Assembly (NCBI GenBank): GCA_947168815.1
Contig: CAMVNG010000001.1
Coordinates: forward strand, 372,001-436,000
Origin: an uncultured bacterium
Lineage (GTDB): Bacteria; Patescibacteriota; Gracilibacteria; Absconditabacterales; Absconditicoccaceae
Direction: 5' to 3'
Length of the DNA stretch: 64,000 nucleotides
Each line of letters begins with the position of its first letter. The stretch's first letter is position 1. The position numbers and the translations under genes are program-made. Shown piece by piece: positions 25,914 to 29,182 of the stretch. Below the pieces are notes generated by a model. The model was not told the origin of the DNA and searched no databases. It saw only the letters and a list, made by a program, of their open reading frames with translations.

Positions 25914-26348
25914 TTATTTTGTACCATCACCAGCTTGATCTGCTCATCAAACAGAATTAACAAGCCAGAATACAACTGATACAATGATCCATGCCAATAA
26001 GATAATAATTAATCAAATTCAAGCCTGCTTTAAAATTGTAAATCACTTCTTATATTTACCATCATCACCTGCAGCTGTAACCATTTGAAATCATCACCAC
26101 AATACTATACACAAAGTAATTAATGACAACATTCAAAGTACCCAGTTAACTGCATTCTTAATAACATCAAGCAAAGCTGAACCCCTTCTATTTTCTTCTC
26201 AAACTCATTGGATTCACTTAACACCTGTATTTCACTGTAATCACTCTTTTGCAGACCAATCAATATCAGTACTAGCCGTAGCTATACCAACAGTACTTCC
26301 AATTGTAGCCAGTCACATCATCATAACTGCAAGTAATTTCGTTTTCAT
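25914..26348 (-). CDS. T4SS-pilin family protein, paralog 1
   Basis: 144 residues. A signal peptide (MKTKLLAVMMMGLATIGSTVG, cleaved near ATA-S) precedes a 35-residue variable region, then two hydrophobic helices (VLGMLSLITLCIVLWGGFQM and IGLIIILLAWIIVSVVFWLV) joined by a basic loop (AAGDDGKYKKGF). This is the VirB2/TrbC-like T4SS pilin architecture common in CPR bacteria. The tail carries GGADQAGDG. Its sister gene lies directly upstream; both have matching promoters and terminators. Confidence 0.8.
25959..26140. repeat. Direct repeat copy A (pilin paralog 1)
   Basis: About 182 bases identical to 26719-26900 (offset 760), inside the two-helix part of the pilin gene. Flanks and the region coding for the mature N-terminus differ, while the signal-peptide and promoter regions are again alike. 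Confidence 0.9.
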
Positions 26349-26664: not shown

Positions 26665-27141
26665 TTAATTAGCTGGAGTAGTTGTTTTCTCTGATGCTGT
26701 TGCTCATCAAACAGAACCAACAAGCCAGAATACAACTGATACAATGATCCATGCCAATAAGATAATAATTAATCAAATTCAAGCCTGCTTTAAAATTGTA
26801 AATCACTTCTTATATTTACCATCATCACCTGCAGCTGTAACCATTTGAAATCATCACCACAATACTATACACAAAGTAATTAATGACAACATTCAAAGTA
26901 TCCAGTTAATTGCATTCTTAATAACATCAAGTAATGAAGATCCCTCCCTTTGAGCAGTTCACACTCATTTAATTTCAGACACCTGAGAATCTGATGTTAA
27001 TCCAGAATTTTTAGCCCATGCATCTGTTGAACTTGTTGTTGGTCTTTTTGTTGTTGGTGTTGTAGTAGCCGTAGCGACACCAGAAATACTTCCGATTGTA
27101 GCCAATCACATCATCATAACTGCAAGCAATTTTGTTTTCAT
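26665..27141 (-). CDS. T4SS-pilin family protein, paralog 2
   Basis: 158 residues. Same signal peptide and two-helix core as paralog 1; between residue 80 and 140 the two proteins are almost identical. The mature N-terminal part differs: it is Thr/Ser/Pro-rich (ATTTPTTKRPTTSSTDAW), as is the tail (SEKTTTPAN). The conserved core suggests the same membrane or filament role, while the exposed parts differ, as expected for subunits specialised in what they display. Confidence 0.8.
26719..26900. repeat. Direct repeat copy B (pilin paralog 2)
   Basis: Partner of 25959-26140, identical over about 182 bases. Signature of a recent tandem duplication or gene conversion. Confidence 0.9.
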
Positions 27142-27289: not shown

Positions 27290-28363
27290 TTATTCATCAA
27301 TAGATTGAGTTTCCTCCTCTAAAATAGCACCCATATTATCTAAAGCTTCATCATCCAAAACTTTTTTTCACAATCTCATATCTTTTATTTTCTCTTGAAT
27401 TTGTTTTTCAACAGCATTACGTGCTTTTTCATCTCATTCTAAATACTTACACAATTTCTCCTTTCATTGAAATTTTTCATTTCATAGTGTATAAAATGCT
27501 CATGCCTTAGTCACCAACTTCAAAATAAGAGCAGCTTCAATTATATCACTTGTCCTATCATATCACATGCTCCACTTAACAGGAAGTTCTGCTGTCTTAA
27601 AAGGAGCAAAAATTTTATTCTTTGCAACCTTAATTTTAGCATAATATCAAACTTGCTCTTTATCCTCCATAATTTTATCACCTTTCCTAATTTCAATTCT
27701 TTGTGATGCAAAAAATTTCAGTGCATTTCCTCATGTAGTAGTTTCAGGATTTCCAAACATAACACCAATTTTCATTCTAATCTGGTTAATAAAAACACAA
27801 ATAGTTCATGTTTTAGCCAAAACTGAAGTCAATTTCCTCAAACCTTGAGACATCATTCTAGCCTGAAGTCACATATAAGAATCTCACATATCTCATTCAA
27901 CTTCTGCTCTAGGAACCAATGCAGCAACAGAATCAATAACAATCATTTTAACAACTCCTGTCTTTGCCAATTCCTCAGCAATTTGTAAAGCTTGTTCTCA
28001 ATAATCAGGTTGAGATAGAATAAGACTATCCGTATCAACTCATAACTTTCTTGCATAATGAGGATCTAATGCATGCTCTGCATCAATAAATGCAGCCGTT
28101 TCTCACCTTTTTTGAATTTCAGCAATAGCATGAAGCGCTATAGTTGTTTTACCCGAAGACTCAGGACCATAGATTTCAATCACCCTTCCTTCAGGAAATC
28201 ATCATCAAAGAATAAGATCTAAAACATAAGATCAACTATGAGCCGTATTAACAAGACCCACATTTGCATTATCTCACATTCTCATAACAGCTCACTTTCA
28301 AAACTGTTTTTCAATGTTCATAAATGCTTCTTTTAATGCTTGTGCATTTGTTGGATTAGACAT
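27290..28363 (-). CDS. recA: Recombinase RecA
   Basis: 357 residues, full length. Walker A GPESSGKT (K72), [10 protein letters not shown], Walker [12 protein letters not shown]1/L2 loop regions around [14 protein letters not shown] and [27 protein letters not shown], and the C-terminal winged region. It forms the strand-exchange filament and the LexA co-protease. An acidic tail ([15 protein letters not shown]) is present. No intein. Divergent from lexA with a shared operator region (28464-28526). Confidence 0.97.
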
Positions 28364-28463
28364 TATAATATATAATAGATTATAAAACAAATTAAATATG
28401 ACAACGAAATGGTATTTAAGAAAAAAAAATAAAAAATCAAGAGAATTTTTTACAAAAAACAAG

Positions 28464-28491
28464 ATACTATGTAATAATACAAAACAGTCAA
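28464..28491 (-). promoter_or_regulatory. recA promoter
   Basis: Minus strand: TTGACT (28486-28491), 16-base spacer, TAGTAT (28464-28469). Its -35 box lies 5 bases from the LexA-type palindrome. Confidence 0.6.
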
Positions 28492-28496
28492 AAAAA

Positions 28497-28513
28497 GTTT
28501 GACAATGTCAAAC
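28497..28513. promoter_or_regulatory. Palindromic LexA operator (SOS box) between recA and lexA
   Basis: GTTTGACA-A-TGTCAAAC is a perfect 8+1+8 palindrome that overlaps the lexA -35 box and abuts the recA -35 box. A further half site GTCAAA (28487-28492) is part of the recA -35. The position fits autorepression of lexA and control of recA by LexA. The sequence differs from both the E. coli and the Bacillus boxes. Confidence 0.65.
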
Positions 28514-28526
28514 AAATCATTATATA
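28499..28526 (+). promoter_or_regulatory. lexA promoter
   Basis: TTGACA (28499-28504), 16-base spacer, TATATA (28521-28526). A transcript from here cannot include the ATG at 28505, which argues for 28562 as the lexA start. Confidence 0.65.
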
Positions 28527-28561
28527 AAGAATATAAACTTTTAAAATTACTTATAACACAA

Positions 28562-29182
28562 ATGAGAGAACCCCTAAAACTTGATGATTTACAAAAAAAA
28601 CTAATCGCCTTCTTCAAACAGAACAAAAATCAAGAAGGATTAACACTTAGGGAAATCGCAGCCAATGTATGAGCTAACCATCCTCAAACAGTTTTAAACA
28701 AATTAAATCAGCTCGTATTTAAAGGATATTTCGTTAAAGATAATCACTGATACAGACTAATAAGAGAAGAATTTGGTAGCCAACAATGAGATGTTGTACA
28801 ATTACCAATTTACTGATTCGCTCAATGTTGAAACAAAGGGAAAGCTATCATTGACGAATATTCCCAAGAAACAATACCAGTAACCGCAGCATTTGTATGA
28901 AGTGATTTATCAAAATGTTTTTTTGTAAGAGCAAAAGGTAATAGCATGGAACCTAAAATACAAGATTGAGATCTTATACTTATCCGTCAACAAGATGACT
29001 ACCAAGAGTATGATTATGTTCTAGTACTCCACAATCAACTCCCAAAATTAAAAAAGATTATAAAAGAAAATGGAAAATATATGCTAGAATCAATTAATCG
29101 CTTTTTTGACAAAGTTGAAATAAGTCCCTTTGATGAAACAAAAATAATAGGTGTTGTTAAAAAGATTATCAAAAGCCTATAA
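28562..29182 (+). CDS. lexA: LexA repressor
   Basis: 206 residues from the ATG at 28562 (E. coli LexA: 202). An N-terminal winged HTH (LTLREIAANVGANHPQTVLNKLNQL) is joined to an S24 peptidase domain with cleavage site QC-GN (C89-G90; Ala-Gly in E. coli), catalytic Ser in AKGNSMEPKIQDGDLIL (S128) and Lys in LPKLKK (about K162). An in-frame ATG at 28505 would add 19 residues but lies inside the promoter and operator, so I reject it. Represses SOS genes until RecA-stimulated self-cleavage. Confidence 0.88.

Follow-up and report, generated by a model that had tools for sequence, protein, structure and literature searches.

A predicted operator shared by lexA and the DNA damage genes dinB, dinD, recG and uvrD in Absconditabacteria

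Background

The LexA box of Escherichia coli reads TACTG(TA)5CAGTA and that of Bacillus and Staphylococcus, where the repressor is also known as DinR, CGAAC-N4-GTTCG (both as quoted in an excerpt of PMC9578287). For Bdellovibrio, a box TTAC-N3-GTAA is reported in the excerpted part of PMC8565304, and an excerpt of PMC7739468 places the Patescibacteria SOS network (Sanchez-Osuna, Barbe and Erill 2017) with the direct-repeat motifs. Among the papers searched, none named LexA together with Absconditabacteria, and none combined Gracilibacteria, LexA and SOS, the 2017 study being considered through this citation.

Here, we analysed the divergent recA and lexA genes within a 64-kb stretch of DNA (the window). 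In our estimate (probability about 0.8), the region between them holds a LexA autorepression operator, an everted pair of half-sites TGTCAAA-N5/6-TTTGACA, and the same box stands ahead of damage genes in relatives, so that lexA and the damage genes dinB, dinD, recG and uvrD would share one predicted operator. The sequences show the sites and their spacing, their conservation, their co-occurrence with LexA and the genes that they precede; binding by LexA, repression at the sites and induction by damage we infer.

Results

The recA-lexA locus of the window

The window belongs to an Absconditabacteria (SR1) genome. Its genes are open only under genetic code 25 (TGA = Gly), and the named genomes closest to it are of SR1/Absconditabacteria and include RAAC1_SR1_1. 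recA and lexA diverge from an intergenic region of 198 bases, in which neither TACTG(TA)5CAGTA nor CGAAC-N4-GTTCG occurs. The features considered below are:

27290..28363, minus strand (28363 to 27290): recA, read with code 25; TIGR02012 447.8 bits, over the cut-off
28413..28440, minus strand: conserved recA promoter, TTGATT, 16 bases, TAAATA in the window
28435..28454, minus strand: possible weaker LexA box at the recA -35, TGTAAAA-N6-CTTGATT; uncertain
28466..28471, plus strand: position of half-site copy 1, GTCAAA in relatives; the window reads ACTATG, copy lost
28486..28504, plus strand: likely LexA box of lexA, AGTCAAA-N5-TTTGACA; such a pair lies at the lexA -35 in 24 of 24 recA-lexA regions
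28497..28513, no strand: palindrome GTTTGACAATGTCAAAC, probably the right half of the likely LexA box plus the extra half-site
28499..28526, plus strand: lexA promoter, TTGACA at 28499-28504, 16 bases, TATATA at 28521-28526; same geometry in relatives
28507..28512, plus strand: extra half-site GTCAAA (copy 3) in the lexA promoter spacer; GTCAA in 24 of 24 regions, absent from other target promoters
28562..29182, plus strand: lexA, ATG at 28562, read with code 25; S24 domain, T. maritima LexA the best solved relative

The start of lexA at 28562, to which the original prediction had moved it, is supported by the distance from the ATG to HPQT, which is 39 codons in the window and 35-40 in relatives. 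Adjoining recA on the minus strand, a tandem pair of genes (25914-26348 and 26665-27141) encodes near-identical small secreted or membrane proteins (MKTKLLAVMMMGLATIGS...).

The LexA of the window scores 72.9 bits against the S24 autoprotease domain PF00717 (cut-off 23.3), 21.6 bits against the N-terminal DNA-binding domain PF01726, under the cut-off of 23.7, and 62.9 bits against the NCBIfam lexA equivalog TIGR00498, under the cut-off of 110.95. Its best solved relative is T. maritima LexA (E 9.8e-11). The cleavage site C89-G90 and the catalytic Ser and Lys (S128, K164), placed by alignment to T. maritima LexA, M. tuberculosis LexA and UmuD, are invariant in the LexA of 27 of 27 relatives. 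Furthermore, a structure model (mean pLDDT 77) displays a winged-helix pattern of three helices and a two-strand wing, with LexA proteins as best fold matches at a whole-chain TM of about 0.4. Residues and model suggest a protein that works like a LexA, and by the curated cut-offs it would be a divergent member at best.

The palindrome as written

The original prediction took GTTTGACAATGTCAAAC, a palindrome between two promoters with 16-base spacers, for the LexA box. The palindrome does occupy 28497-28513 in perfect 8-1-8 form, and both spacers are correct (TTGACA/TATATA for lexA and, on the minus strand near the palindrome, TTGACT, 16 bases, TAGTAT). Perfect palindromes of 17 bases number four in the 64-kb window, where 40 Markov-1 simulations gave 3.55 on average, and the probability of meeting one by chance within the 198-base intergenic region is about 0.02. 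The exact 15-mer TTTGACANTGTCAAA has a single copy in the 1.29-Mb genome; with up to two mismatches it has 8 places there against 16 for the reversed control, and TTGACNNNGTCAA with up to one mismatch has 19 against 59 for its control, without excess in either case. The genome scan with TTTGACAnTGTCAAA, which had been suggested as a check, returned no set of sites and no excess over the control. Because the count in the window is at chance level and near matches are fewer than for the reversed control, the palindrome alone, as written, defines no site set and proves nothing. The expectation that hits would precede repair genes fails for the palindrome and holds, mainly in relatives, for the corrected box described below. 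It is conservation in relatives, as read from their aligned sequences, that lifts the palindrome above chance.

Conservation of the half-site array in the family

The comparison covered 49 genomes of the family (Absconditabacteria/SR1, TGA = Gly), 32 of which have a LexA match, 27 a close one (at least 59 % identity) and 43 a recA, counts that refer to genomes of shared ancestry and not to independent events. recA and lexA lie at one locus in 24 genomes, divergent in every case; this set is without G058, G023 and G056, where LexA is present and recA is not beside lexA. Phased half-sites of the GTCAAA type occur in all 24 regions. In the alignment, the upstream copy 1 is GTCAAA in 23 of them, the window being the sole exception, copy 2 is GTCAAA in 21 and ATCAAA in the other three, and copy 3 is invariably GTCAA. 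The first step measures 21 bp, the second 20 bp in 18 regions and 21 bp in six. A degenerate copy 1 surviving in the window was considered and rejected, as the sequence in register is ACTATG. An operator unlike the E. coli or Bacillus boxes at the lexA promoter, as originally proposed, is supported, and it is conserved in relatives.

Nine of the 24 regions are long (771-1011 bases); in eight of these the half-sites are 183-391 bases from recA and 526-718 from lexA, and in the long region L038 they are 727 bases from recA and 240 from lexA. Open frames of 122-159 aa stand ahead of lexA in five of the six long loci read. In G058, recA lies apart from lexA, the full array of three half-sites accompanying recA (L079) and only copy 3 accompanying lexA (L034), as a rearrangement has split recA from lexA within the array.

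Of the 27 genomes with a close LexA, 24 gave a match at E < 1e-8 to a sequence model of the array (R1); none of the 22 others did. The three close-LexA genomes without a strong match are the window's own (E 0.005, copy 1 lost), G023 and G056, the latter two having recA and lexA at separate places. No array was seen upstream of recA in the three LexA-less genomes read. Across 288 genomes of the class, R1 matched at E <= 1e-5 in 24, all in this family, with none outside it. With regard to further targets, R1 returned one strong locus per genome and otherwise background, G058 having a second, weaker one at lexA; the weaker R1 and dyad matches inspected were mostly within genes or unrelated, rpsL among them.

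An everted pair at target promoters

The recA-lexA region is ambiguous on its own, as both TTTGAC-N3-GTCAAA and GTCAAA-N5/6-TTTGAC are present. A family-wide search with RTCAAA-N6/7-TTGACA, of which 40 places were inspected, led to promoters of recG, dinD, a Pif1-like helicase, dprA/mraY, uvrD, dnaX and yifB/comM. At target promoters with two half-sites the pair is TGTCAAA-N6-TTTGACA, the TTGACA of its right half being the -35, with the -10 sixteen bases on; the 24 that were aligned read TTGTCAAAAATAnnnTTGACA followed by TATAAT sixteen bases on, and none has GTCAAA after the -35. The dinB promoters of G000, G001, G002, G059 and G060 carry (G/A)TC(A/T)AA and then (T/C)TTGACA at a fixed distance. 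Since the targets carry the N6 pair without GTCAAA after the -35, we read the box as the everted pair, at lexA located at 28486-28504. The palindrome is then most likely the right half of this box joined to an extra half-site particular to lexA, and TTTGAC-N3-GTCAAA, the form first suggested, is most likely not the box, the two-half-site targets having TGTCAAA-N6-TTTGACA. A narrower reading, with LexA control confined to lexA and recA, did not survive the dinB promoters and the everted-pattern search, and a single dyad TTGAY-NN-TGTCAAA was discarded as scattered, with LexA-less genomes included.

The protein families seen behind the box are DinD, RecG, UvrD/PcrA, DprA, YifB and PIF1, and two of the dinD-type proteins exceed NCBI's cut-off for DNA damage-inducible protein D. 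Others were named by resemblance to a scanned gene, namely L313 and L237 (Pif1-like), L318 (RhuM), and L316 and L310 (BRO-like, L310 having no Pfam match). The gene divergent from mraY is dprA; it has this arrangement in g14 genomes and lies near dnaX in G053. dprA promoters with a box or box-like site were noted at L242, L245, L246, L248, L252, L253, L258, L324, L329 and L337, and Y1/IS200-like transposase genes behind a box at L260 and L321 (G057, G055).

The spacer is N5 rather than N6 at lexA in 18 of the 24 regions, as well as near dnaX of G053 and yifB of G057, and N5 at lexA against N6 in the other targets is hard to reconcile with a rigid dimer. The loose pattern also has matches in some LexA-less genomes (four in G007, six in G013). 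In G056, with a LexA of 59 % identity, the box matches mostly fall within genes or next to repeats; at L263, L264, L268 and L269 of this genome a box-like sequence adjoins a GCGAATT tandem repeat and resembles a dispersed repeat, not an operator.

An independent profile and the targets of the window's own genome

A second model (R2) was trained on 24 N6 promoters, from which the window's genus and all lexA sites were excluded; only N6 sites were used, and L237 was left out owing to its unclear orientation. Within the window, its best match is 28488-28528, the lexA promoter (E 0.0018; next 0.023). Across 40 genomes it gave 39 rows, representing 38 places, at E < 1e-4, and none at this threshold in the 10 LexA-less genomes, where the best match (1.0e-4) is a site without the left half. 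Fourteen of the 38 places lay outside the training set, one of them (L237) having been seen before training. They include the recA-lexA region of G042 (E 1.4e-5), uvrD, yifB/comM, Pif1-like and RhuM genes (two each), the membrane/HU operon of G001, a BRO-like gene, an NYN gene, an SLH-domain protein and one unassigned place.

In the window's own genome, R2 has three matches at E <= 0.05. The membrane/HU operon (C6) and dinB (C1) are among the matches listed, and the third has a score that would agree with the lexA site. Targets vary from genus to genus and are few in this genome. In G000 and G001 a separate box precedes the small-membrane-protein/HU pair, which in G002 stands behind dinB. The pair consists of an HU-like protein and a protein of 82 aa with two hydrophobic segments (L333 2393-3102, G000:C6; L332 858-1540, G001; L198 312-1983, G002); the latter is a candidate for a membrane protein induced by damage, for example an inhibitor of division.

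The recA promoter

Across relatives, the recA promoter has a CTTGATT-like -35 and a -10 about 16 bases on (CTTGATT-16-TAAAAT). It lies about 45 bases nearer recA than TTGACT, which the original prediction had assigned as the recA -35 and which is not conserved as a promoter. The left half of the possible box at the recA -35 agrees at 6 of 7 positions in the window and L012 and at 2-5 of 7 in most others, and is perfect in G023 (L077); the box as a whole is good in G023, partial in the window, L012 and L013, and poor in the remaining genomes. Judging from these sites, LexA may control recA in part of the family only, or via the array upstream of the recA promoter. Between promoter and array, a second conserved dyad, (C/T)AGT-N5-ACT(A/G), was noted in L012, L013 and L041, at roughly 28448-28470 in the window, and in many relatives.

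Discussion

Other readings of these half-sites have to be weighed. It is unlikely that LexA binds the inverted TTTGAC-N3-GTCAAA as one palindromic box common to recA and lexA: although its left TTGA and right GTCAA are present in 24 of 24 recA-lexA regions (TTGAC in 17) and its core resembles the Bdellovibrio TTAC-N3-GTAA quoted in the excerpt of PMC8565304, scans of the window's own genome gave no excess over the control, and the other target promoters display the N6 pair with no GTCAAA past the -35. We consider as rather improbable a direct repeat, in which LexA would read same-orientation GTCAAA half-sites every 20-21 bp. Such a reading would account for the three in-phase GTCAAA copies of most recA-lexA regions and for a triple GTCAAA (24 and 21 bp) near yifB in G055, G060 and G005, and it would agree with the excerpt of PMC7739468 that cites the 2017 Patescibacteria study among direct-repeat motifs. 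However, the pattern GTCAAA-N14/15-GTCAAA recovered mainly lexA arrays and was rejected, and the recG, dinD, uvrD, dprA and dinB promoters have one inverted pair.

That the box is bound by some different regulator, one of competence for instance, rather than by LexA appears very unlikely, as the array tracks the presence of LexA (24/27 versus 0/22) and stands at lexA itself, and dinD, dinB, uvrD and recG are predicted targets, even though dprA and yifB/comM are among the targets. We give least credence, and very little, to the half-sites being the back-to-back -35 elements of divergent promoters with no operator at all. recA-lexA and dprA-mraY are divergent and TGTCAA can be read as a -35 on the opposite strand, but of the 24 aligned sites 18 do not belong to the dprA/mraY group, and in these 18 the -10 match is 2.9 of 6 leftward versus 4.7 rightward, the conserved recA promoter uses another -35, and the half-site inside the lexA spacer is invariant. 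Moreover, the mean -10 match to the right of the boxes is 4.6 of 6, mostly at 16 bases, and to the left 3.0 against 3.4 in shuffled sequence; as the leftward match is below the shuffled value, the boxes are not paired divergent -35s.

Returning to the everted pair, a LexA dimer would probably bind the half-sites of TGTCAAA-N5/6-TTTGACA and, with the -35 inside the right half, would block RNA polymerase when bound. At lexA of most relatives, a second box 20-21 bp upstream, on the same DNA face, and the extra half-site past the -35 could strengthen autorepression; in the window, the upstream second box at lexA has been lost. Upon DNA damage, RecA filaments would trigger self-cleavage of LexA at Cys89-Gly90, opening the gene set. 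In relatives this set would comprise dinD, recG, uvrD, the Pif1-like helicase, dprA (beside mraY or dnaX), RhuM and dinB, all behind a predicted N6 box, and yifB/comM behind one with N5 or N6, and in the window's own genome lexA, dinB and the small-membrane-protein/HU operon.

Tentatively, and with somewhat more doubt than confidence, we propose that Absconditabacteria possess a LexA regulon with its own box, TGTCAAA-N6-TTTGACA, through which damage induces repair and also genes that handle incoming DNA (dprA, yifB/comM), joined in the window's genus by the membrane/HU pair. If true, an ultra-small symbiotic bacterium would couple DNA damage to the recombining of foreign DNA, and the targets suggest that small symbiotic bacteria may connect damage to the way in which incoming DNA is processed. 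For DNA-damage control in a candidate-phylum lineage, the analysis provides a concrete candidate operator with a list of targets that can be tested. It also describes a family whose genomes have or lack the operator array along with LexA and, presumably, adds one more half-site to the known LexA boxes.

How does this system compare with those described? As in E. coli, LexA adjoins the operator of its own promoter, and the two boxes upstream of E. coli lexA are 21 bp apart, a distance equal to the step from half-site copy 1 to copy 2 in the present array. Members of the E. coli SOS regulon such as dinD, dinB and uvrD-type genes are likewise predicted targets here. In contrast to E. coli, the box is TGTCAAA-N5/6-TTTGACA, dprA, yifB and recG are among its targets, and the cleavage site is Cys-Gly, as in UmuD. 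With LexA (DinR) of Bacillus and Staphylococcus, as described in the excerpt of PMC9578287, it has in common an inverted dyad at SOS promoters, whereas half-site and spacer are different. The Bdellovibrio box TTAC-N3-GTAA, as excerpted, resembles the palindrome TTGAC-N3-GTCAA, but the other targets here are not built on an N3 pair. The Patescibacteria SOS network of 2017, as cited, is a LexA regulon of the same superphylum as Absconditabacteria. For LexA relatives from other families of the class, 11 loci were examined, and three of them (L020, L022 and L023) have a dyad of GGTGA type with six spacer bases ahead of the gene; this GGTGA(G/A)-N6-CTCACC or similar sequence shares its spacer with the Absconditabacteria box but has a half-site other than TGTCAAA.
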